The translations under genes were made by a program, and so were the position numbers. From a virus, in IMG/VR virus record IMGVR_UViG_3300044986_000619, positions 1 to 23,553 of that record: 23,553 nt of DNA; one strand, given 5' to 3'. This document shows, one piece after another, positions 1,021-23,553 of this stretch (its first letter is position 1; each line of letters opens with the position of its first letter). A model generated the notes under the pieces. The model ran no database searches, had not been told where the DNA came from, and was given only the letters and a program-made list of their open reading frames with translations.

Positions 1021-1839
1021 TCACGCTAAGACAGGGGCTATGTCATCCCCGTCAATGGTTGATCGAATAGCAAAGAATTGATGGTACTTAATCGTGTGCC
1101 GGAAGTGTCGATTCCATGTCTGATACGAACGACCTTCTTGCCCCCAGGTCACGTCCCAGCTATTACACATATCAAAGAGCCACTCTCCACTGGGAGACAG
1201 GATTACATCATCGACAAGTACCGCATGATTACCCACGCCAGCAGACTCACCAGACACACCATTAGCGTCCAAGCGACTCCACGCATTAGACGCATGAACT
1301 GCCACCACACAGTCGTAACCAAGAGCATTTGCTACTGCGAGGTCTAGCTCCTCCTCCAGCACATAACACTCCAGCATGATATTGTTTTTCATTGAGTCCT
1401 TTTGCGACTGCGGGATTCGCCCCCACAAATACTCAGGACGCTCATTGGCAATCGCAGCGGGAATGCCACGAGTTGTCATCCACTCCATACCATCTTTCAA
1501 GAGCGAGCCTCGATCGACACCACCATTGATCGCAGCGTACATAGCAAAGCCGCTCAGCATCCGTCGCGGCAATCCACGCCGTACGCGAGCGCGAGCACCA
1601 GCTCCTGCACAAGCAAAGCCGTTACATGCTCCAAGCGATTTTTGATTCATAACCCAATCAAGACCAAAACGCTTGCGACCGCTCTTACGACGCGAATCCG
1701 TGATGATCTTATTAACCTGCTCACGAGTCAGCATGGGCTTAGCATCTGCAAACAAACGAAAGCCACTCTCTCGAACTTCAGGCACAATCAAGCCAGTTCC
1801 ATAGAACTGACCATTCACTTCAATCAGCTCTTTTGACAT
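1021..1839 (-). CDS. Papain-like (C1 family) cysteine protease
   Basis: This 272-residue protein carries the full catalytic set of papain-fold peptidases. NQKSLGACNGFA (residues 65-76) matches the papain NQGSCGSCWAF region, giving oxyanion Gln66 and nucleophile Cys72. GNHAVLVDDV gives His205, and CNSWDVTWG gives Asn226 followed by the conserved Ser-Trp. The middle (LSGFAMYAAINGG, then GMEWMTTRGI) also follows the family layout. There is no signal peptide and only a short leader of about 55 residues instead of a long propeptide. It is preceded by AGGGAAGTGAC-ATG. It sits between membrane-anchored thioredoxin-like genes and structural genes. Its role could be virion protein maturation, cleavage of a host protein, or attack on wall peptides during lysis; the sequence does not decide. 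Confidence 0.85.
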   Translation of the reverse strand: MSKELIEVNGQFYGTGLIVPEVRESGFRLFADAKPMLTREQVNKIITDSRRKSGRKRFGLDWVMNQKSLGACNGFACAGAGARARVRRGLPRRMLSGFAMYAAINGGVDRGSLLKDGMEWMTTRGIPAAIANERPEYLWGRIPQSQKDSMKNNIMLECYVLEEELDLAVANALGYDCVVAVHASNAWSRLDANGVSGESAGVGNHAVLVDDVILSPSGEWLFDMCNSWDVTWGQEGRSYQTWNRHFRHTIKYHQFFAIRSTIDGDDIAPVLA

Positions 1840-2524: not shown

Positions 2525-3511
2525 TCATACGTTGCACACAATCTTGCCGCGATCAATGATGTAGTTGCGAAACTCTGTGCTGCCATTCGCATCAACACGC
2601 GCCCGACCAAAACCGTGATTCCAGTTATTGATTGGTGAATAACCCTTGATCATTTGGCACATACAGCCAATTGAGAAGCAGCGATGAATCCTCTTGCTAA
2701 GCCCCTCCGTAGAAACATGCTCACTGGAAAAGTGATGATGACTAACCACTCCACTGAATCCGATTTTTCCGTAAAGCGTCTTAGCAGGATTTACCGGTGA
2801 ACCAGCACCTTTGGGTAGCTCGTGTCCATGGAACACAGGCAGGTCACCGATAATTACATGCTGCTTGCTGGTTATGTAATCAAACTTCAGCTCATTAAGC
2901 CTCAACACCTGATCAAGCTGGAATGCCGATATGCCCACTACCGCACTAGCCCGCTGGTATAGATATCTCTCATAGCGATCTTCGTGGTTTCCAATCTTGT
3001 AAACTCGATGGCCACGAAAGTACTTTCTCAATCCTTTCAAGATTTCGTGCATCGTATTAAGCTCATCAGAGGGACTCGCCATCCTCGGATCTGAGACGTA
3101 ATCAGATAGTCGATAGAAATCTACGCCATCGCCGTTAAGCAAGATGTTGGTTATTTTGTTATCGAAGCAAAACCGTATCATCGACTCGATCGAAACCTCA
3201 TCGTGATACGGCACATGCCAATCGCCAGTAATGAGCCAATCACCTTTCTTGGTGTACTTGGCAGGAGGTAAAACCTGATGGATGCCCTTAGGTAGTATTA
3301 GCTTGGAGGGCTGCTTACGAGCTACTACCGCACCTTTCTTTTTTCGATTCCCATTCCCCATAACCCCAAAGCGATAGCGAATGAGACTTCGTGCAGACTC
3401 AGTGGTGTACAACTCTGGATACTGCTCGACTAGCAGGCGAGCCAGTGTTCTATTACCAACATTAGGATACCGATCGACAATCTCATCAACTAATTTATCT
3501 CGCCGCTTCAT
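2525..3511 (-). CDS. Calcineurin-like metallophosphoesterase with N-terminal HTH-like region
   Basis: The 328-residue product contains the usual metal-binding motifs of the calcineurin-like phosphoesterase superfamily: GDWH at 96-99, NGD at 126-128, GNHED at 174-178, an HGHE at 228-231 and SHHH at 257-260. These bind two metals that hydrolyse phosphodiesters or phosphomonoesters. The first 60 residues, with NRTLARLLVEQYPELYTTESARSLIRYRFG, look like a small helical DNA-binding extension known from some phage relatives. The start at 3511 was chosen because GGAGGG lies eight bases upstream; a longer frame to 3544 lacks this. Possible jobs are nuclease, nucleotide phosphatase or RNA processing. 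The substrate cannot be read from sequence. Confidence 0.85.
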   Translation of the reverse strand: MKRRDKLVDEIVDRYPNVGNRTLARLLVEQYPELYTTESARSLIRYRFGVMGNGNRKKKGAVVARKQPSKLILPKGIHQVLPPAKYTKKGDWLITGDWHVPYHDEVSIESMIRFCFDNKITNILLNGDGVDFYRLSDYVSDPRMASPSDELNTMHEILKGLRKYFRGHRVYKIGNHEDRYERYLYQRASAVVGISAFQLDQVLRLNELKFDYITSKQHVIIGDLPVFHGHELPKGAGSPVNPAKTLYGKIGFSGVVSHHHFSSEHVSTEGLSKRIHRCFSIGCMCQMIKGYSPINNWNHGFGRARVDANGSTEFRNYIIDRGKIVCNV

Positions 3512-3551
3512 GCGAAGCCCTCCAGAAAGAAACCGAAGCGACAACGCTAAA

Positions 3552-3782
3552 CTATTTCATGCTTTTATTTCCCCGACATTTCCATCGCTTACGTGAAATA
3601 TCATTGGGGCAAGGAGGATTGTCGCATTTGGGAATCTTTGCTGATCGGGCGCAATAAGAGTCACCTTTAGCTGTCCCAGGCTTAGGCGTAACACCAGCTT
3701 GACCAACACTACGCTTTTTGCCGTCAACATTAACTGCGACGGCCTTACCTTTGGCGGGCTGACTTGCTGCTTTCTTAGGCAT
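3552..3782 (-). CDS. Small basic Cys-containing protein
   Basis: This 76-residue protein is Lys-rich at the N-terminus (MPKKAASQPAKGKAVAV) and ends in a small cysteine region with Cys44, Cys53, Cys58 and Cys69 inside YCARSAKIPKCDNPPCP. Four cysteines in this spacing could bind one zinc ion or form disulfides. The basic N-terminus could contact nucleic acid. It overlaps the gene upstream by 8 bases and has a purine-rich AGAGAGAAGAA before the ATG. No family is recognised, and whether it is packaged or acts in the cell is unknown. Confidence 0.65.
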   Translation of the reverse strand: MPKKAASQPAKGKAVAVNVDGKKRSVGQAGVTPKPGTAKGDSYCARSAKIPKCDNPPCPNDISRKRWKCRGNKSMK

Positions 3783-4215
3783 TTCTTCTCTCTCTAACTA
3801 GGACACTTATAAGCATGGATGTTACGTCTAGGTTTTTGTCTCGCCACTTTGGAATCGACGTAAAGTCTGCAAACCTAACTGTAGTAATCACCTCACACTC
3901 GATGCCACCTATACGCTTACGGTGGAATACATCTCTGATACGATTTCGAAAATAGGCTTTGCTTGCCAAACCTTCCTGGGTCTTCATTCGGCCTGTTGAC
4001 CTAGTTAGCCGAAAGGTATATCGAATATCATCTTGAAGGTTCGTGCCTATCCCTTCTGATTCTTCCATGGGAGATAGGACTATTCCTAATGACGGCTTGA
4101 GTTCAGGCGGATCCTCATAACGTATCTCATCAGTTCGATGAGGAGGAAAAGACTCCGCCCTCAGCAATAGAAGAATTCGATCAACAATTTCCTGATGACG
4201 ATCTAGCTGTGCCAC
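3775..4215 (-). CDS. Putative tail completion/terminator-type protein, 146 aa
   Basis: The gene begins with GTG and its first base overlaps the TAG of an alternative frame upstream (TAGTG), which suggests translational coupling. The protein begins HQEIVDRILLLLRAE-like after four residues, an amphipathic helix followed by a beta-rich domain (GIVLSPMEE, IRYTFRLTRSTGR, CEVITTVRFAD, VTSMLISVLVRE). This helix-then-sheet layout and length are typical of phage tail-terminator or neck-completion proteins. No membrane segment is present. The call is by resemblance in layout and genomic position only, so alternatives among small virion proteins remain open. Confidence 0.55.
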   Translation of the reverse strand: MAQLDRHQEIVDRILLLLRAESFPPHRTDEIRYEDPPELKPSLGIVLSPMEESEGIGTNLQDDIRYTFRLTRSTGRMKTQEGLASKAYFRNRIRDVFHRKRIGGIECEVITTVRFADFTSIPKWRDKNLDVTSMLISVLVRERRNA

Positions 4216-4427
4216 TAGCGGCTCACAATCTCATTTAGTCGCGTCGAAACACGATAAGTCACTGTGAAGTTGTATGCGGTTGCGGCAAAGCCGATCCCGA
4301 TGAGGATGGCTGCTGCCCACTGTGCAGCTCTTGCTCGATCACGGCTTGCTTGTTCAGGATTGCGGAGATTGCAGTAAAGTTCCCTGTAGCTAGCGCGAAT
4401 GCAATGGCGATGACCGTGGCAATCCAC
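4215..4427 (-). CDS. Possible small membrane ORF overlapping the PAS gene end
   Basis: A second frame overlaps the end of the PAS gene and continues 44 bases past its stop. Its last 40 residues include AAQWAAAILIGIGFAATAY, a convincing transmembrane segment, and a charged tail ending RLNEIVSR. A GTG at 4425-4427 with AAGGA ten bases upstream is a candidate start giving 70 residues, but the first part is Cys/His-rich and not protein-like. Alternatively the frame is reached by a -1 frameshift from the PAS gene, or a base error has split one gene. The stop overlaps the GTG of the next gene (TAGTG), which argues that ribosomes do end here. Confidence 0.35.
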   Translation of the reverse strand: MDCHGHRHCIRASYRELYCNLRNPEQASRDRARAAQWAAAILIGIGFAATAYNFTVTYRVSTRLNEIVSR

Positions 4428-4891
4428 TTGTAATTGTCCTTTAGAAGAATCACCATGTCCTTCCATGTCGTTCCACCTGATTCCCTGATGTCGTTGTGCG
4501 GCACGAAGAATATCCAGTAAAACTCCACTTTCCCCACTACCGGCTCCCGAAACACCGTCAAGCTGCCCCACGCATACCGAGGTCTCTCGGGCCTTGATCC
4601 GCTCTTGTGGTACGCCTTCACTACGGTATAGCTCGTCAGGTCGCCACTGCTCAGATTGATCAGTAGATCCTTGTCGATCGTCCGATACTTGTCGTGCGTA
4701 ATTTCGTCCAGAGTGAGTGACAGCAGTTGCCCCTCGGTGCATTCGAGAAATCGACAGATAGAAGTATTTACCCATAAAAACTTACCTTCCTTGCTGACAG
4801 CCGCCATCCCGATTGGCATGTCTGAGCACAACCTGACGGCACCCATTTGCGTTATGGTGACTGGCCCCAAAACGGGATCCGTGAGCGCCAT
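4259..4891 (-). CDS. PAS-domain protein with C-terminal transmembrane segment
   Basis: Residues about 20-132 form a PAS domain, a small sensory fold that binds ligands or partners. The visible pattern is DMPIGMAAVSKEGKFLWVN, then CRFLECTEGQLLSLTLDEI, and the central sheet WGSLTVF / VEFYWIFFVPHND. Residues about 154-178 (YKWIATVIAIAFALATG) form one membrane span, and the tail is Ser/Pro/Gln-rich. No kinase, cyclase or HTH output domain follows. It starts at ATG 4889-4891 with AAGGA nine to ten bases upstream. It lies between a tail-completion-like gene and a thioredoxin-like gene in the late block. A sensor of cell state or energy at the membrane, perhaps tied to lysis timing, is an inference. 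Confidence 0.8.
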   Translation of the reverse strand: MALTDPVLGPVTITQMGAVRLCSDMPIGMAAVSKEGKFLWVNTSICRFLECTEGQLLSLTLDEITHDKYRTIDKDLLINLSSGDLTSYTVVKAYHKSGSRPERPRYAWGSLTVFREPVVGKVEFYWIFFVPHNDIRESGGTTWKDMVILLKDNYKWIATVIAIAFALATGNFTAISAILNKQAVIEQELHSGQQPSSSGSALPQPHTTSQ

Positions 4892-4903
4892 AGGCGAGCA
4901 TCC

Positions 4904-5293
4904 TTACATCTCTTCCACTATCTGCTTCAAAGCCGACATTGACATATAGCCTACATGTCGAACCACCTTACCCCGTCCGTAAATATCAAATCTCGGCCAA
5001 GGTCCATCGGCAGTGTATGTCTCCTCAAATTTCCAACCAGCAGCCTTAATCTTCGCAAGCTCACTAGCCTTCCATTTGCTACACCACACGCAATTGTGGC
5101 TGGTATACATGACGATTGTTCCGTCCATCGTCACTGGCTCGTCTTCTTTGCCAGTCTCCTCAACTACTGGCTCCGCAAGCTGATCCTGAGCTACAGGAGC
5201 TGGAAGAGGCTGTCTATTGTCAGGAAACAGGCATGAGAAAATCGTCCCCACAACCAAGCCTACGAACGGCAGAACAATACAATCTCGTCGCAT
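4904..5293 (-). CDS. Membrane-anchored thioredoxin/glutaredoxin-like protein
   Basis: The 129-residue product has an N-terminal hydrophobic anchor at about 6-23, a Pro/Glu-rich linker, then a thioredoxin-fold domain. TIVMYTSHNCVWCSKWK supplies a redox CXXC (Cys68-Val-Trp-Cys71), and PWPRFDIYGRGK matches the cis-proline strand region. Such proteins exchange thiols and disulfides, here probably outside the cytoplasmic membrane. A Cys at position 21 follows the anchor but the lipobox is weak, so lipoprotein status is unclear. The start ATG overlaps the previous stop (TAATG). A role in folding or reducing secreted phage or host proteins is possible but unproven. Confidence 0.8.
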   Translation of the reverse strand: MRRDCIVLPFVGLVVGTIFSCLFPDNRQPLPAPVAQDQLAEPVVEETGKEDEPVTMDGTIVMYTSHNCVWCSKWKASELAKIKAAGWKFEETYTADGPWPRFDIYGRGKVVRHVGYMSMSALKQIVEEM

Positions 5294-5595
5294 TACACTG
5301 CCCTCACGCTCTGAATAGCCTTCTTTACAAGCGACATCAAAGCCGCCTTCAGAACCTGATCAGTCATTGCCTCGAAAGCATCAGGCACCCCTGGCAGATC
5401 CAGTGGCGAAATGTATCGGTCATAAAGCTGACCAACGAACGCAGCCATAGCGTCAGCATCTATACCAGCCTGCTTCTCTACAATATCGAGAATCAACTTA
5501 GCCAGTTCTCCAATAGCAGAACCCTTCGTTGATCCTGCCGAAGCAGCAAACGTAGCTACTCCTTCTTCAAGTTGCATTTTTACATCGGGACTCAC
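5293..5595 (-). CDS. Hypothetical helical protein, 100 aa
   Basis: I chose the GTG start at 5593-5595 because AAGGAG sits six bases before it. A longer frame to 5655 would overlap the preceding gene and carries no better ribosome site. The product (MSPDVKMQLEEGVATFAASAG onward) is Ala-rich and mainly amphipathic helix, with LAKLILDIVEKQAG and MSLVKKAIQSVRAV near the end. It has no cysteine or clear membrane span. Position between a connector-type protein and the thioredoxin-like gene suggests a small late protein, perhaps virion-associated. No family is recognised. Confidence 0.7.
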   Translation of the reverse strand: MSPDVKMQLEEGVATFAASAGSTKGSAIGELAKLILDIVEKQAGIDADAMAAFVGQLYDRYISPLDLPGVPDAFEAMTDQVLKAALMSLVKKAIQSVRAV

Positions 5596-5621
5596 AATAA
5601 TCTCCTTGGAGGGTGAAAAAA

Positions 5622-6818
5622 CTAAACAGGTGCATTGACTTTCGAATAGCGCCAATACTGATCACCTAACCAGAATGGCGTCATTGGAGTCGCCTCCTGG
5701 TCATAATTAGCTGAGCATTCCGCTGCCACAGCCTGTCGCAAAGCTTGCCGTGTCAACTCCTTAGACTCAGCTAACTTTGCGTGGTCTGCGTTCATAGCAA
5801 ACCTCTCCATAGCCAACGCTTCAATTACATTGAGCATTGTCGCTGGCTCGATATCTAAGACATCACTGATCGAGTATCCTCGACCAGAAGCTGTCTCGCT
5901 CGCAGCTTCAGTAAGTTCTAGCTGCGTTGAACTAATAACTCGCCTAACAAAAGCTTGATAGACATACTCTTCTCGGTCTGTATTATCTTGATGATTGCCT
6001 TTAGGCAGGTAACTATTTGGCGAGAGGCGAAACAAAGTGCCCACCAGCTTTTGACTAAACGACGCTCCCGAGCATGTCACCGTAGTGCTTCCGCTCGTAA
6101 TCGCCGCATCACTACCTGACACCTCATAGTTCCTCAGAGGCACAGGACGAACCGTGACGGTTGCCTCATACACCTCAGATTCGCTCGGAGGTGGAATAAG
6201 CACGACATCAACAGCACCAAACCTATTACGACTAGGAAGCAGAGCGTACCTCAATGGAACACCTGGACTCCGAAGAGTCTTTTGGATTCGAGGAACCTCT
6301 AGTTGACTAGCAGGCTGCAACCTAACCAAACTCGTAGCTCGCCACATTTCTCGTACCTCGCGTATTGGCGAAGGCCAGGAATATGCCGACCTAAACCACA
6401 CGAGAGAAACAAAGCTCTCATCTGCACCAGGGTTAAGCTCTGTGGTAAGAGTCACGATCTTGTCACTTATGCGACGCTCTATCTGATAAGTCGCGTCACC
6501 GGCATGCACTTCACCTAGATGAGCATTTGCGGGCCAAGACTCTGCCGATAAAATTGTTAGCTGTCTTTCATTGGCCCCGCCTGTATGATCATACGAGCAC
6601 GAAGCTACAGAAAACGAAGCATCTGTCCTAAGCATTAGCTTACGATTAAAAAATCTCCACTTATGCAAAGTAGGCAATTCCCGATACGCATCGTCAATCG
6701 CAACTCTTAATCTTGTCACATCAGACACAGATCCAGAAAGCCCGTTACGCAGGAGCAATCGCTGAACGATATCGTAAAACGTAAATACGTTGTTCCAATC
6801 GACTTGATCTACTATCAC
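5622..6818 (-). CDS. Putative connector/adaptor or tail-tubular protein, 398 aa
   Basis: The protein begins with a helical region that includes VTRLRVAIDDAYRELPTLHKWRFF, a pattern seen in podovirus and siphovirus adaptor or tail-tubular proteins that sit below the portal. A beta-rich middle domain follows (about residues 60-320, with GSTTVTCSGASFSQ typical of a beta-sandwich), then a helical C-terminus. Length is in the range of such connector proteins. It starts with GTG; the upstream GGAA is a modest ribosome site. It lies downstream of portal and two small structural genes in the same direction, which supports a head-to-tail joining role. Exact family is uncertain. Confidence 0.6.
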   Translation of the reverse strand: MIVDQVDWNNVFTFYDIVQRLLLRNGLSGSVSDVTRLRVAIDDAYRELPTLHKWRFFNRKLMLRTDASFSVASCSYDHTGGANERQLTILSAESWPANAHLGEVHAGDATYQIERRISDKIVTLTTELNPGADESFVSLVWFRSAYSWPSPIREVREMWRATSLVRLQPASQLEVPRIQKTLRSPGVPLRYALLPSRNRFGAVDVVLIPPPSESEVYEATVTVRPVPLRNYEVSGSDAAITSGSTTVTCSGASFSQKLVGTLFRLSPNSYLPKGNHQDNTDREEYVYQAFVRRVISSTQLELTEAASETASGRGYSISDVLDIEPATMLNVIEALAMERFAMNADHAKLAESKELTRQALRQAVAAECSANYDQEATPMTPFWLGDQYWRYSKVNAPV

Positions 6819-6832
6819 GGGCTATTTCCAGA

Positions 6833-7279
6833 TTAAACGTGAGTCATTGCAGCCGAGACAACCATTTCGCCACCAGGAAGCTTAGTCGCAAGAAACGATG
6901 TTGCTGCCGTAGCAATCGAGAAGGTCAGCACTGCAACACCAGCAGCGTTCGTAATAACCGAAATCTCTTTGTCCGCAATCTTCTCAAGAACCTGCCCCGT
7001 GGTGGCAGCGATCGTGTAGTCGGCAGCGTTAGGCGCAAAGGTTGACGTACTCGAAATAAGCAAAATATCCAACCACACACGATTGGCTAGAGGCGCACCA
7101 TCAAGGCCAGTCGCCGTAATAGTCACCGTAATGACGTTAGTAACTTCAGCGCTGATCGAATAAGCGATACGCATACCGCCATCAACCAAGACATCCAAAG
7201 CATCGGCAAGCTTTCTTCCAGGTGCTGGCATAGCTACCGAGCTAATTAACGCAGTTCTTTCAGTTCCAGTAAGGGGCAT
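6833..7279 (-). CDS. Hypothetical beta-rich virion protein, 148 aa
   Basis: This protein starts MPLTGTERTALISSV and is dominated by Thr/Val/Ala beta strands, with TNVITVTITATGLDGAPLAN resembling an immunoglobulin-like or decoration domain and AAGVAVLTFSIATAATSF near the end. It has no cysteine, signal peptide or charged low-complexity region. The ribosome site GAGGATTTAGAA-ATG is good. It is only a few bases from both neighbours, so it belongs to the same late message as portal. A capsid-decoration or head-fibre role is plausible from composition, not proven. Confidence 0.7.
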   Translation of the reverse strand: MPLTGTERTALISSVAMPAPGRKLADALDVLVDGGMRIAYSISAEVTNVITVTITATGLDGAPLANRVWLDILLISSTSTFAPNAADYTIAATTGQVLEKIADKEISVITNAAGVAVLTFSIATAATSFLATKLPGGEMVVSAAMTHV

Positions 7280-16252: not shown

Positions 16253-16604
16253 TGAAGATTACCTGCTGCAAGCAATGGATGCCGTAATGGGAAGCGTCAA
16301 CGAGACGCAAGAGATGATCGCAGGTTTAATGAATGAACAAGCAGAGTCCGTTCTGCCTGCCCGAGTAACGGTAGCAATGGAGTGCCTAAAGATTCTCCAT
16401 CGAAGCCAAAAGATCGTTACCTTCTCCGAGTTGAAGCGCGGCGGGGATTCGTCGGTCAGTACCCATGACCACGAACCAATCTCTGAGTCGGTCAAGAGAT
16501 ACCCCCGCACGCTTGAGCCTGAGGAGAGTCAACTCCGAGATGTCTGTTGCCAATTCCTTTCTGGCTATCTTATCGAAGCGATTAATGGCGACGAGACCGA
16601 TTGA
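16242..16604 (+). CDS. Hypothetical protein coupled to the wHTH gene; tail antisense to the recombinase
   Basis: The start ATGAGTGCTAATG overlaps the stop of the wHTH gene, indicating coupled translation. The first 60 residues (SANEDYLLQAMDAVMGSV, then EQAESVLPARVTVAMECLKILH) are protein-like and helical. From about residue 49 the frame is fully antisense to the end of the recombinase gene (219 shared bases), and there the sequence is more random (RGGDSSVSTHDHEPISE). It has no known family. The real product could be all 120 residues, or the gene may have spread into the neighbour by loss of an earlier stop. A role with the wHTH protein in the lysogeny or excision switch is a guess. Confidence 0.6.
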   Translation: MSANEDYLLQAMDAVMGSVNETQEMIAGLMNEQAESVLPARVTVAMECLKILHRSQKIVTFSELKRGGDSSVSTHDHEPISESVKRYPRTLEPEESQLRDVCCQFLSGYLIEAINGDETD

Positions 16605-17990
16605 TTCGATCATCTTCGGCCAAGCGTAGTAGGTGACACCAATCTGATTGGGGACAAGCAATCCCTTACGTTTTTCGCGGCGATCCTCAAAGACGTGATT
16701 AGCCCATTGCTTGCGACGATTCTGAGAAAACAATGCGTTAACGATATGAGCACAGTCGTTCTTGCTGAACTTCATTTCCTTCCATAGTATATGAGACATT
16801 CGGAAACGAACCATATTGCTGCCGCTTAGGACAAACCGGTTTTGTCCCTCCACGCACATAGACTTGTAGCACATCAAATGCTTTGTGTACTTAAGCCCTT
16901 CCCTCTTCATCTTCATCTTTGCTTCAGAAATCCTCTCACCCTTCATTGTGCTCTCAAGTTCTGCAAATGTACCCAGTAAACCCAGATACCAGTCACCGTC
17001 ATTTTGGTCTGTGCGTATCCCCTCCTCAATCAATCGCAGGATGATTCCCCTGCGATGAAACTCCTTCAGCGTATTGACCATGTCCTGTAGAGAACGAAAG
17101 ATACGATCGAAGCGATACACCACCACGCAGTCGCCACGCTTAGCCTCACCGAGGATACGTTTACCGCCAGGGCGTTCCGCAAATGGCACCTTAAAACTCG
17201 ACACCGCTTCGTCTGCCACAATACCCAGGCACTCACCTCCAATCGCCTTAAGGTCCTCTTCCACTCTCTCTCGCTGGTACTGGAGTCCCAATCCGGATTC
17301 CACCTGACCAGTACTCGACACACGGATATAACCCCAGGTACGGGTCACCTGCTGAGCCTCCTTACGTTTCTTTTTACGGCTAGGTGTAGCAGCCACAAGA
17401 CTTGCGATCTGGTCGTGCTCACGAAACTCCACCACCTCATCGACATTCATGTTAACTGGAGCCTTAGGCTTGGGCGGGATCGCCTTACCCTGACGAGCTG
17501 CCTTAATAGCATTGGCTTCCCTAGTACGGAAGGAGATCATCCTAGACCAGTGCTCAGCCAGCACTGCACAGATCGCAGCCTTGAGCTGCCCTGAAGCTGT
17601 CGAGAGGTCGATACCCTCGTGAATGAAGTGAACAATGATTCCACGCTTAGCGAATTGCCCCATCACAGTGCCGAAGTCACCGAGGTTTCGAAACATCCTG
17701 TCCACCGACCACACTAATAAATGATCTCCCTTTTGAAGCTTCTCTAGCAATCGTGAGCCAGCAGGTCGCTTGGCAAGCTTACTGTTTCCGTAGGCGCTCA
17801 CACCACGATCTACAAAAAAGCCAGGAGTACCCTCTGGATAGCAATCGGTTGACCACTGAACATCTTTGATCTTATAATGCTTGTACTGTATAGCTCGATC
17901 GATCTGAGCTTCGATACTCATTGACGTTGCGACGGAACTGGAATCCGACTGGCGACAATACACAAACACGCAGGGAGGTCGCTTAGACAT
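16386..17990 (-). CDS. Tandem serine recombinase with two catalytic domains
   Basis: This 534-residue protein holds two resolvase/invertase catalytic domains in one chain. Domain 1 (about 5-170) has YCRQS with Arg13 and Ser15, VSAYGN, and VDRMFR with Arg98 and Arg101. Domain 2 (about 217-365) has YIRVSS with Arg223 and Ser225, and FDRIFR with Arg296 and Arg299. These match the nucleophile and activating arginines of gamma-delta-type resolvases, so both look intact. A Lys-rich linker with RKKKRK lies between them. The C-terminal 170 residues are basic and probably bind DNA, but lack the long coiled-coil or zinc-ribbon layout of large integrases. The start ATG shares bases with the sigma gene start on the other strand; its own ribosome site is weak. 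Likely role: integration, excision or DNA inversion. Confidence 0.85.
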   Translation of the reverse strand: MSKRPPCVFVYCRQSDSSSVATSMSIEAQIDRAIQYKHYKIKDVQWSTDCYPEGTPGFFVDRGVSAYGNSKLAKRPAGSRLLEKLQKGDHLLVWSVDRMFRNLGDFGTVMGQFAKRGIIVHFIHEGIDLSTASGQLKAAICAVLAEHWSRMISFRTREANAIKAARQGKAIPPKPKAPVNMNVDEVVEFREHDQIASLVAATPSRKKKRKEAQQVTRTWGYIRVSSTGQVESGLGLQYQRERVEEDLKAIGGECLGIVADEAVSSFKVPFAERPGGKRILGEAKRGDCVVVYRFDRIFRSLQDMVNTLKEFHRRGIILRLIEEGIRTDQNDGDWYLGLLGTFAELESTMKGERISEAKMKMKREGLKYTKHLMCYKSMCVEGQNRFVLSGSNMVRFRMSHILWKEMKFSKNDCAHIVNALFSQNRRKQWANHVFEDRREKRKGLLVPNQIGVTYYAWPKMIESIGLVAINRFDKIARKELATDISELTLLRLKRAGVSLDRLRDWFVVMGTDRRIPAALQLGEGNDLLASMENL

Positions 17991-18771
17991 GAAGAAAGAT
18001 CCGGTTGCTGAGTTTCTAGCTGGCAGGAAAGCACCACGCCTAACCGCCGAACAAGAGAAGGATTGTCACGAAAAAGCCCTGGCTGGTGACGCTCAATCCA
18101 TGGAAACGCTGATATGTTCTCAGGCTCACTGGATATGGACACTCTGCCACAGGCACCATAAACCAAAACAACTCACCACAGACGATCTATTCCACGAGGC
18201 AATTTCGCAGGCTTATCTGGCGATGAAAAACTTCCATCCAGATCGCGGTCGTCTCTCCTCTTTTCTCTCACGAGTAATCCCAAGAAAGTGCTCTGACTTT
18301 GTTGTCAAAACGTGCAGCACGTTTGGCAAGCGAGCCCCAGCGGAATACATCTCGGACGCAAATTCATTTCTGCTTGACGAGGATGGCGTTAAGTCGATTG
18401 TCGCTGAACTCAAAGAATCTAACGTCTACGAGGACAGCTACTACGACGACATCGATGATCTAGCAGCCGTAGTGATATCCATACTATCGGACATGGAGCA
18501 AAGGTCAAGATGGATCGTGGCAAAAAGAATCGAAGGCAAGACTGCCGAGGAGATCGCCAACGAAGAAACCATGATTAACCTGAAATCCAACAGGCTAGGT
18601 AGAATCACCGAACCGTCTAACATCATGCTTACCCTTCACGCCATTCGACGCGAGATACTCCGTGAACTGCTCAGACGAGACATACCGCTCGAATCCTGGG
18701 TGCCGGGATCTAAGATAGGTCAACTCTTCGACATAGCTAGCAGCGGCGACCAAAATCGCCTTTTCGACTAA
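17989..18771 (+). CDS. RNA polymerase sigma-70-like factor (phage-encoded)
   Basis: Residues about 36-105 match sigma region 2: LICSQAHWIWTLC, then TTDDLFHEAISQAYLAMKNF and RGRLSSFLSRVIPRKCSDFV, the parts that bind polymerase core and the -10 element. Residues about 160-225 look like region 4 with a helix-turn-helix (RSRWIVAKRIEGKTAEEIANEE) for the -35 element. Size of 260 is somewhat above typical ECF factors; an acidic linker (EDSYYDDIDD) joins the two. GGGAGGT nine bases upstream is a strong ribosome site, yet lies inside the recombinase coding sequence on the other strand. It may redirect host polymerase to phage genes. The C-terminal end converges with the GNAT gene over 35 bases. Confidence 0.75.
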   Translation: MKKDPVAEFLAGRKAPRLTAEQEKDCHEKALAGDAQSMETLICSQAHWIWTLCHRHHKPKQLTTDDLFHEAISQAYLAMKNFHPDRGRLSSFLSRVIPRKCSDFVVKTCSTFGKRAPAEYISDANSFLLDEDGVKSIVAELKESNVYEDSYYDDIDDLAAVVISILSDMEQRSRWIVAKRIEGKTAEEIANEETMINLKSNRLGRITEPSNIMLTLHAIRREILRELLRRDIPLESWVPGSKIGQLFDIASSGDQNRLFD

Positions 18772-20963: not shown

Positions 20964-21885
20964 AACTCACCTCTAGTCGCAACGACTTTTCTAAAGCATG
21001 TAACCGTCGCACCCTAAGATACTCACCGTCAAATTCTTGAATCGCAGCAGCAACCTTTTCGCTGAACTGTGATGCTATCTGCGGTAGTGCATCCAGACAG
21101 TTAACGTAGTTCCCAAACATTGCCAGCAGCTTGCTCGCATAGATCTCGCCAATACCCTGTGCACCTGGGATGTCGTTCTTGCCTACCAAACAGAGCCAAT
21201 CGATCCACGACTGCGGAACCAGTGCGTAGCGGCTAAATAGATTCTCTCGCGAGAAAAACTCGCTCACCCAGAACGTCGTCGTTTGTGGGCCTAACAACTG
21301 GAACAGATCTCGATCCTGAGAGATAATGACCGTCTTGTCGCCTGCCAACGCATACGACGTAGCCAGTGATGCAAGTACGTCATCTGCCTCGAACGTCTCG
21401 ACCTTACAAACTTGACACTCCCACTTCACCAGCATCTCACGAACGCGATTTACAAATCGCAGCAGGCCAGGGTCAACCTCGATCCGTTTACTCTTCCATC
21501 TCGCATCGTACTGGTATCGCCAGCCACCTTGCTCACACTCATCAGCAAACACGATCGGAGAGCTAGCAAACCGCGCCTTTATTCCCTTCATTAGACTAAG
21601 GAACTCGTTACTGGATTGATCACTTCCTTTGGCCCTACTCCATGCCAGCCAGCACAATGCCTTTAAATCGATGGCCACAACATTTCTGCTTGGTCGAGTC
21701 TTGATCTGTTTAAGCTTGTAGTTATAAGTTGGCATGCAGCCCTTTAAAAACCAAGTCTGGCTACTTAGCTGCACCATCTCACGAGACTTATTGACCAGCT
21801 CCTCAAGCGTCTCACACTTTGATAGATCATCTTTATAAAGAGCGATCTGATCTCTCTGCCATTCCGTTAGACTCTTACTTTTCAT
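20956..21885 (-). CDS. 5'-3' exonuclease / flap nuclease (T5 exo-, Pol I N-domain-like)
   Basis: The 309-residue protein has the PIN-like nuclease core that trims flaps and primers: AIDLK (Asp73), VFADE (Asp115), FEADDVLASLA (Glu166, Asp168, Asp169), ISQDRDLFQLL (Asp191, Asp193), then an HhH region around IPGAQGIGEIYASKLL. In relatives the block GDxxDNIPG supplies two metal ligands; here it reads VGKNDIPG, so one is missing and the order differs. An N-terminal extension of about 65 residues (EWQRDQIALYKDDLSKCETLEEL) precedes the core. AAGGACAACCC-ATG gives the start, which overlaps the helicase end by 11 bases. Confidence 0.85.
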   Translation of the reverse strand: MKSKSLTEWQRDQIALYKDDLSKCETLEELVNKSREMVQLSSQTWFLKGCMPTYNYKLKQIKTRPSRNVVAIDLKALCWLAWSRAKGSDQSSNEFLSLMKGIKARFASSPIVFADECEQGGWRYQYDARWKSKRIEVDPGLLRFVNRVREMLVKWECQVCKVETFEADDVLASLATSYALAGDKTVIISQDRDLFQLLGPQTTTFWVSEFFSRENLFSRYALVPQSWIDWLCLVGKNDIPGAQGIGEIYASKLLAMFGNYVNCLDALPQIASQFSEKVAAAIQEFDGEYLRVRRLHALEKSLRLEVSYE

Positions 21886-23488
21886 GGGTTGTCCTTAATG
21901 CTGTGACCTCTGTGTGTTTAACTTTGCGACTCCAAGTGGCTTCCTCCACCGGCATACGCAGTAAGTTTTTGGGCGGGTAGTAGCCATACTTTCGCCGGAA
22001 GAAAGCCATGACCTGATTAAAGGACATGGGGCGATCGGACTTGCTGTTTCTCGCTGCATAAAAGAGCGAGTCCCAACGTGTTTGATCTTGTGGTGTCTGA
22101 CGAATGCGAGGTGCCCGAAAGTTTGGTTCGTTGACTCGTCGCAGCTCACCACTCTGCTGCACGATGAACTTGCCACGACGACCAGCCTCTCGGCCACAGC
22201 CCACTGGAGGCGCAGGGCAAGCAGGTATCGAGTGATGTCGCACTGTATGGCAGTACGGACACACAATGGGATCTCGCTCTGGTTGCTCTTGAGCTTGCTC
22301 GCGAATCTTCTTCTCGATCGTGGCTTCATCCTGATAGTACAGTTGCTCCCAATCTCGATCGCGATTAGGGCCTCCATTGAAACGATAGTAGCTACCAGCA
22401 TGATCAGTAATCAGCACATGGTCTGGTGTCTCAGGCGAATAACGAATAACCCTGCCCGTCGATTGCAAGTACGTCTTGATACTGGAAAAAGGAGTGGCGA
22501 GAACGCATTGATACATCTGTGGCAAGTCGATTCCTTCCCTCAATACGAACCGATTGCAGATCACCTTAATGTCACCACTGCGCCAGCGACCAAGAACATC
22601 TTCTCGGATCGAACCATCGGTGTCTGTGTACTGCTGCCCATCAACACACACCTTCGTCGCGTCGATATGGCACGCACGAAATCCAGCGTTATTGAAGTCG
22701 TTCATCAGTCCGATCGACTCCTCCACTCCAGGCGCAAACACAAGCGTTGGTCGTGCGTTAGGATTCTCCTCTCGCCAGCTCTGCACCACTCGCCCCACAA
22801 TCTGCTGACTCCAAACATGCTTGCGTATGTCACCAAGCGAATACTCACCCGTCTTGACTCGCTTGACCTTCGATAAGTCGAACTCAAACGGAGCCTTGAT
22901 AATCGCTCGTACATGAGCACCACACCTAAGGCAATCCGATGGCTTACCTGCCACAATTAGCCTCGGATACAGATGACTCATACCTATCGGAGTTGCTGTA
23001 ATACCGACGATCTTGGCTCGATCATGCAGGTACGATCGAAGGAACTTCTCGGACTCACCACTAGCTTGTAGATGTCCTTCGTCGACAAGCACAATGTCCG
23101 CTCCAAATCGCTCCCACCTGGAACTATTGATAGTCCTGGCGATCTCCGACTGCACACTACTGATCTGCACATCCTGGCTCGCATCAAAGTGCTCGGCCAG
23201 TGTCGCTGCACGAACACCAAAACCAATCCCCTTCACCTGAGCATTTGCCATAGTTTGACGAGTCAACATACGCCTGTTGGTTAAGATCAAAATCTTGGCA
23301 CCAATGTTGAGGTAATGTTGAACCAGTGCCCACATCACATCTGATTTTCCGGCACCAGTTGCGCTACAAAGCGTTACTGCGTTGTGCGTCCGAAGCTCCT
23401 CAACCACACGAGTTGCTGCCTCAAGCTGATGAGGCCAAGGCTCACGAGTAAAGCAGTTCCTTATTTGCTGTGTGTTGGCTTCTTGCAT
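21875..23488 (-). CDS. SF2 DEAD/DEAH-box DNA helicase with C-terminal zinc ribbon
   Basis: The 537-residue enzyme shows the helicase motifs in order: HQLEA near 20, Walker A SATGAGKS (42-49), DEGH (136-139), TATP (164-167), REGID (317-321) and QSTGRVIR (342-349). This matches RecQ/UvrB/type III Res-like SF2 helicases that couple ATP hydrolysis to DNA unwinding. A CXXC at 186-189 and a later set Cys410, Cys413, Cys424, Cys431 suggest small zinc elements. GGAGGGAGCA-ATG fixes the start at 23488; an in-frame GTG at 23500 lies inside the ribosome site. It heads the replication block and probably opens DNA for the phage replisome. Confidence 0.9.
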   Translation of the reverse strand: MQEANTQQIRNCFTREPWPHQLEAATRVVEELRTHNAVTLCSATGAGKSDVMWALVQHYLNIGAKILILTNRRMLTRQTMANAQVKGIGFGVRAATLAEHFDASQDVQISSVQSEIARTINSSRWERFGADIVLVDEGHLQASGESEKFLRSYLHDRAKIVGITATPIGMSHLYPRLIVAGKPSDCLRCGAHVRAIIKAPFEFDLSKVKRVKTGEYSLGDIRKHVWSQQIVGRVVQSWREENPNARPTLVFAPGVEESIGLMNDFNNAGFRACHIDATKVCVDGQQYTDTDGSIREDVLGRWRSGDIKVICNRFVLREGIDLPQMYQCVLATPFSSIKTYLQSTGRVIRYSPETPDHVLITDHAGSYYRFNGGPNRDRDWEQLYYQDEATIEKKIREQAQEQPERDPIVCPYCHTVRHHSIPACPAPPVGCGREAGRRGKFIVQQSGELRRVNEPNFRAPRIRQTPQDQTRWDSLFYAARNSKSDRPMSFNQVMAFFRRKYGYYPPKNLLRMPVEEATWSRKVKHTEVTALRTTHEK

Positions 23489-23553
23489 TGCTCCCTCCAC
23501 AGGCTAACGAAATTAGCAAACGCAGCCTGCGTTCTTTCTTTCCAAGGTGAGCG
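23461..23553 (-). CDS. Partial upstream gene, C-terminus only
   Basis: An open frame enters from the right edge and ends at TAA 23461-23463, overlapping the helicase start by 28 bases. The 30 visible residues, including WKERTQAAFANFVSLWREQC, read like a real amphipathic helix and basic tail. Overlap with the next start is usual in this operon. The other frames also stay partly open, so confidence is limited and function cannot be given. Confidence 0.45.
   Translation of the reverse strand, partial: RSPWKERTQAAFANFVSLWREQCKKPTHSK

Follow-up and report, generated by a model that had tools for sequence, protein, structure and literature searches.

The 23,553-nucleotide stretch of DNA analyzed here (the window), from an uncultured tailed phage, encodes a membrane-tethered PAS protein (PAS-TM) and what is most likely a real overprinted gene, ORF2, which is read in the −1 frame from inside the PAS gene (Table 1). 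We propose, with a probability of about 0.4 for the account as a whole, that the two products form a late accessory envelope module that adjusts membrane breach or envelope protection. The initial annotation of this DNA placed a PAS-domain membrane protein at positions 4259–4891, which coincides exactly with an open reading frame on the minus strand; the overlapping second gene went unnoticed there and is new here. Both genes recur in a sister lineage, and the PAS and ORF2 comparisons below involve these two lineages only, both of them metagenomic.

Table 1. Features of the PAS/ORF2 cassette and of the genes that border it in the window
Feature	Position	Strand	Basis or remark
PAS-TM gene, 210 aa	4259..4891	minus	Shine-Dalgarno-like site, −5.9 kcal/mol; sister gene 75% identical at the protein level
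S-box PAS domain, about residues 20–133	4493..4834	minus	profile, PDB-profile, tblastn and Foldseek matches
Predicted transmembrane span of the PAS protein, about residues 157–178	4358..4423	minus	hydropathy
ORF2 (candidate gene), −1 frame overlap of the PAS gene, 186 aa, extends beyond the PAS stop	4215..4775	minus	openness in both lineages, stop avoidance, reduced synonymous change, excess identity
Shine-Dalgarno-like AAGGAAGG ahead of the ORF2 ATG, within the PAS coding sequence	4785..4792	minus	−9.0 kcal/mol
Predicted C-terminal transmembrane span of ORF2, aa 154–172	4260..4316	minus	hydropathy 1.63 (window), 2.22 (sister)
Alternative shorter ORF2 form from Met104, 83 aa	4215..4466	minus	conserved ATG; strongest constraint here
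Thioredoxin-like protein, CVWC motif, lipobox-like N-terminus	4904..5293	minus	directly upstream of the PAS gene; lipobox read by eye
First gene of the inserted cassette, about 100 aa	5293..5595	minus	sister homologue MSPDVK...; start chosen by comparison
Conserved head-tail gene, upstream border of the accessory slot	5622..6818	minus	relatives at 27–34% identity
Tail-terminator-like gene (name inferred), downstream border of the slot	3775..4215	minus	directly after the 5622 homologue in distant relatives

The product of 4259–4891 is almost certainly composed of a PAS domain, one predicted membrane span and a short tail, in that order. The PAS domain is of the S-box type, for which the curated models TIGR00229 and PF00989 have cut-offs of 22.9 and 22.6 bits. 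The window protein lies below both (19.5 to 20.1 bits, E 8.1e-4, and 16.6 to 17.3 bits, E 0.0081, respectively). The sister protein scores 28.2 bits against TIGR00229, above the cut-off, and 21.7 bits (hmmscan) or 22.6 bits (six-frame search) against PF00989, and it is through this copy that a curated S-box model is reached. Both proteins match the PAS region of PRK09776 (DgcE-type), with E values of 4.1e-11 for the window and 4.8e-13 for the sister. With the sister protein as query, tblastn returns S-box PAS domains of bacterial diguanylate cyclases and kinases encoded on plasmids (best E 7e-7, over residues 9–114), and a two-sequence profile finds the histidine kinase PAS domain 3olo as its top match in the PDB (E 0.0028). 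The domain resembles the TIGR00229 S-box PAS domains of DgcE/PRK09776-type diguanylate cyclases and of histidine kinases in sequence, in the order of its secondary structure elements and in a PAC-like motif (W.SLTVF...W.FFVPHND), from which its 3′ boundary was placed. The PAS claim thus appears secure from sequence, and structural models back it only weakly. AlphaFold, run on the two-sequence alignment, gave two low-confidence models (pLDDT 38 and 39.5); the best Foldseek matches to the low-confidence domain model are nearly all PAS domains (3olo, MmoS, YtvA, DosP and FixL; top E 2.6e-3). The flavin-binding cysteine of LOV domains lies on helix E in a motif of the GxNCRFLQ type. Judged by eye, this element is absent from the PAS protein; a CRFL string in the window protein falls in an earlier helix of the 3olo alignment and reads CRCL in the sister.

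The span is the single hydrophobic segment of the protein, with a mean Kyte–Doolittle hydropathy of 1.92 in the window and 1.75 in the sister, in agreement with the membrane span noted initially. Three Lys/Arg residues flank it on the N-terminal side and one on the C-terminal side, a charge balance from which we infer that the PAS domain is cytoplasmic. Searches of Pfam, NCBIfam and PHROGs gave no match to a kinase, cyclase, phosphodiesterase or DNA-binding output, so the description of the protein as lacking an output stands. In this it differs from the DgcE and kinase sensors: it has no GGDEF, kinase or second sensory domain, only the C-terminal span.

PAS domains had also been called rare in phages, and our searches concur. 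Searched against 50,697 sequenced phage records, the PAS protein gave no match at E values up to 10; the search works, since it recovers relatives of the phage recombinase in 345 of these records. With a self-written generic PAS consensus and an E value threshold of 0.01, a single record of the 50,697 was matched, a count that is a lower bound because one consensus misses divergent PAS domains. Among 18 related virus records, the gene is restricted to three sister contigs. PAS-directed viral scans and two genome scans likewise returned the sister lineage alone for this gene, and by those two scans the genome collection gave no relatives of the phage itself.

ORF2 overlaps nearly the whole PAS gene from codon 39 onward, and the sister ORF2 has equal length and an equivalent position. 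The −1 frame of the PAS gene is open for 174 codons in the window and 170 in the sister, from the same starting codon; the longest −1 open run in any other gene, with 22 genes compared, is 97 codons. Synonymous resampling with genome codon usage predicts 14.4 and 12.6 stops in this frame where none occur, and 0 of 5000 such trials that kept the protein were stop-free. That the frame is open by chance or through base composition, and that ORF2 is no gene, is improbable. The PAS gene does use few T-ending codons and ORF2 lacks a homologue, but permuting the gene's own synonymous codons, which preserves its composition, still gives 6.9 and 6.4 stops (P 1e-4 and 1.5e-4). T-ending codons occupy 0 of 34 and 0 of 29 stop-making junctions, against T3 frequencies elsewhere of 27% and 26%. 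The openness of the sister frame is not merely inherited, because none of its 17 stop-making junctions with a different or new codon is T-ending (P 4e-4 under genome usage, 6e-3 under the gene's own T3 rate). A long chance frame does exist in this DNA, a +1 frame of 171 codons in the helicase gene (21875–23500, minus strand), but in the sister it runs for 81 codons only; lacking conservation, it is treated here as chance, whereas the start and end of ORF2 are identical in position in both lineages. The open frame and its start are conserved in more than one lineage, beyond chance expectation.

Selection on the encoded amino acids seems to be concentrated toward the end of the overlap. Codons for the same amino acid differ between lineages at 11 of 44 positions in PAS codons 140–206 versus 53 of 102 before (Fisher p 0.0034), and ORF2 identity opposite codons 140–206 is 59% versus 36% expected (reached in 0 of 4000 simulations). 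Over PAS codons 39–100, ORF2 identity shows no excess (41% versus 37% expected from the PAS frame), and across codons 39–139 stop avoidance is the sole signal of selection. The whole frame is stop-free and excess identity is confined to the C-terminal part; amino acids therefore seem to matter only there, in the region that bears the span. This leaves two options, a tolerant linker in the N-terminal half or a main product that starts at Met104, and the lack of excess conservation in the N-terminal half makes the translation start uncertain. Both candidate starts are preceded by Shine-Dalgarno-like sequences. The energy ahead of the first ATG is −9.1 kcal/mol in the sister, close to that in the window, a value of −9.0 being reached by about 3% of 476 minus-strand ATGs; at the Met104 ATG the energies are −9.3 and −6.9. 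Pfam, PHROGs and NCBIfam contain no convincing ORF2 homologue. Taken together, the two-lineage comparison indicates that ORF2 is very probably translated. We rejected a PAS–ORF2 fusion made by −1 frameshifting, as no slippery heptamer is common to both lineages; a TTTGGGG at codon 7 occurs in the window only and appears to be a chance match.

The PAS gene and ORF2 lie in a variable slot between the conserved head-tail gene and the tail-terminator-like gene. More distant relatives were gathered with a degenerate DNA pattern designed to match the tail-terminator-like gene and with a portal profile built from four sequences. They include four (G010, L038; G015, L036; and the related contigs L040 and L057) in which the border genes are adjacent or overlapping and the slot is empty. 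In the window lineage the slot holds four genes in about 1.4 kb, of which PAS and ORF2 are the last two. In G006–G008 it holds about 10.4 kb, read from sequence as a GalE-like epimerase, glycosyltransferase-like genes, a subtilase-like protease and small membrane proteins. A Ser-rich protein was also observed among the slot cargo at L082 (G007:C1:15800–28600). Since its contents range from nothing through 1.4 kb to 10.4 kb across relatives, the slot is a variable cargo site, and the PAS/ORF2 pair is quite likely accessory cargo, not structural. The same synteny argues against a plain virion protein, an identity that would have counted against the original sensor proposal. A role for the pair as a chaperone or scaffold for head-tail joining, with PAS as a structural fold only, would suit its co-directional position between head-tail genes, but is very unlikely given that the border genes sit directly together in distant relatives and that both products carry membrane spans. 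We also compared the PAS-protein span with a 121-aa membrane protein from the G007 slot and discarded the resemblance (hhalign probability only 0.4%).

Of the two thioredoxin-like proteins reported near the PAS gene, the one at 4904–5293 holds up: it has the CVWC motif and a hydrophobic N-terminus, and its sister homologue matches a thioredoxin PHROG (E 1.8e-4). The other, at 1841–2269, is thioredoxin-fold-like at best; it has no CxxC, and the sister copy matches ArsD below the cut-off (E 7.5e-4). Identities as ArsD and Mobilization_B were rejected for the neighbors on account of such sub-threshold matches. The small membrane proteins reported nearby are present. No coding-strand promoter was found in 3500–7000, so the cassette is probably transcribed with the late genes.

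Several observations concern other parts of the phage. Single-domain resolvases are the usual form, and the serine recombinase at 16386–17990 (minus strand; sister L007:3930–5606) carries two tandem Resolvase domains (PF00239) in one protein in both lineages, with the serine motif apparently kept in both halves as judged by eye. A divergent gene adjoining it (17989–18771, plus strand) encodes a sigma-70 region 2 protein (PF04542, E 1.4e-7), possibly a phage-encoded sigma factor. The region 1–1870 is 84% identical to the sister at the DNA level versus 64–72% in the other aligned stretches, which suggests recent exchange. The protein at 1021–1839 (minus strand) is a papain-like cysteine peptidase candidate, with weak Peptidase_C1 and PHROG peptidase matches, and is possibly a lysis or virion enzyme. 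Rfam and tRNA searches gave no match.

The arrangement would be that of a late-transcribed accessory envelope module of a tailed phage, in which an S-box PAS domain with one C-terminal span and no output is paired with the product read in the −1 frame from inside its gene. The PAS domain, in the cytoplasm, would act as a ligand- or state-sensitive dimerization module at the inner membrane. Because an output domain is absent, its effect must go through dimerization or a partner, and ORF2 is the obvious candidate because it is encoded by the same DNA, an arrangement that also ties the expression of the two together. Output could thus be protein–protein, reaching ORF2 by way of the span and tail. 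A further partner may be the envelope-anchored CVWC thioredoxin-like protein, which would be made immediately ahead of PAS-TM and whose upstream position makes a redox input thinkable. The likeliest job of such a module would be to respond to the state of the cell, either by adjusting the occurrence or timing of membrane breach or by shielding the envelope of the infected cell. A role in lysis, membrane state or exclusion is plausible for the pair. Timing of lysis or membrane state, taken separately, is a tentative assignment, and we rank it about equal with exclusion. The most specific form of the proposal, a two-protein switch with PAS as sensor and overprinted ORF2 as output subunit, linking the state of the cell to breach or protection of its envelope, is speculative.

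The leading alternative is that the pair belongs to superinfection exclusion or lysogenic conversion cargo with no link to lysis. PAS-TM, ORF2 and the lipoprotein-like thioredoxin would then alter the host envelope or titrate host PAS partners. We regard this as possible, though the odds are against it. It would account for a slot that is empty in some relatives and elsewhere carries GalE-like, glycosyltransferase-like and subtilase-like genes, for the presence of a phage-encoded serine recombinase, and for the fact that the closest PAS relatives are host signaling PAS domains. Expression in a lysogen is unsupported, however, by any promoter of the cassette's own, with the caveat that the promoter patterns may not be those of the host.

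Less likely is that PAS-TM and ORF2 act as a pair in lysis, in the manner of spanins or holins. Phage lysis genes are often read from overlapping frames, and two small membrane proteins in overlapping frames invite comparison with the embedded or overlapped Rz/Rz1 spanins of tailed phages, which are frequent and known in both +1 and −1 registers (PMC6139136). Two-component spanins are defined by an i-spanin with an N-terminal transmembrane segment and an o-spanin with a lipobox (PMC6139136). Neither feature is found here: hydropathy profiles of both products lack an N-terminal hydrophobic signal, both spans are C-terminal and leave little sequence predicted to be periplasmic, and where spanins have a coiled periplasmic domain there is a folded PAS domain. 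For holins, the one family match is to Holin_9 (E 0.06, 14 versus 25.3 bits), far below the cut-off, and no recognizable holin or endolysin lies beside the pair. Gene E of φX174 offers another comparison. This lysis gene is overprinted inside gene D, so that a membrane-span protein is set on the gene of a folded one, and the span of its product is essential (PMC8227390). E has a known lysis function, whereas ORF2 is a candidate gene and runs beyond the gene that it overlaps.

The late envelope module that we favor bears on how phages use PAS domains. Few sequenced phages encode one, and the known example, VqmA of vibriophage VP882, responds to a host signal by driving the lytic program (PMC8284805). 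VqmA works through DNA, with a DNA-binding output and no membrane span, and PAS-TM is the reverse. Among tailed dsDNA phages it is unusual for one membrane-protein gene to overlap another over such a length in the −1 frame, and standard gene callers would pass over this overlap. A membrane-tethered PAS domain without an output would mean that PAS sensing at the envelope is also used by phages.
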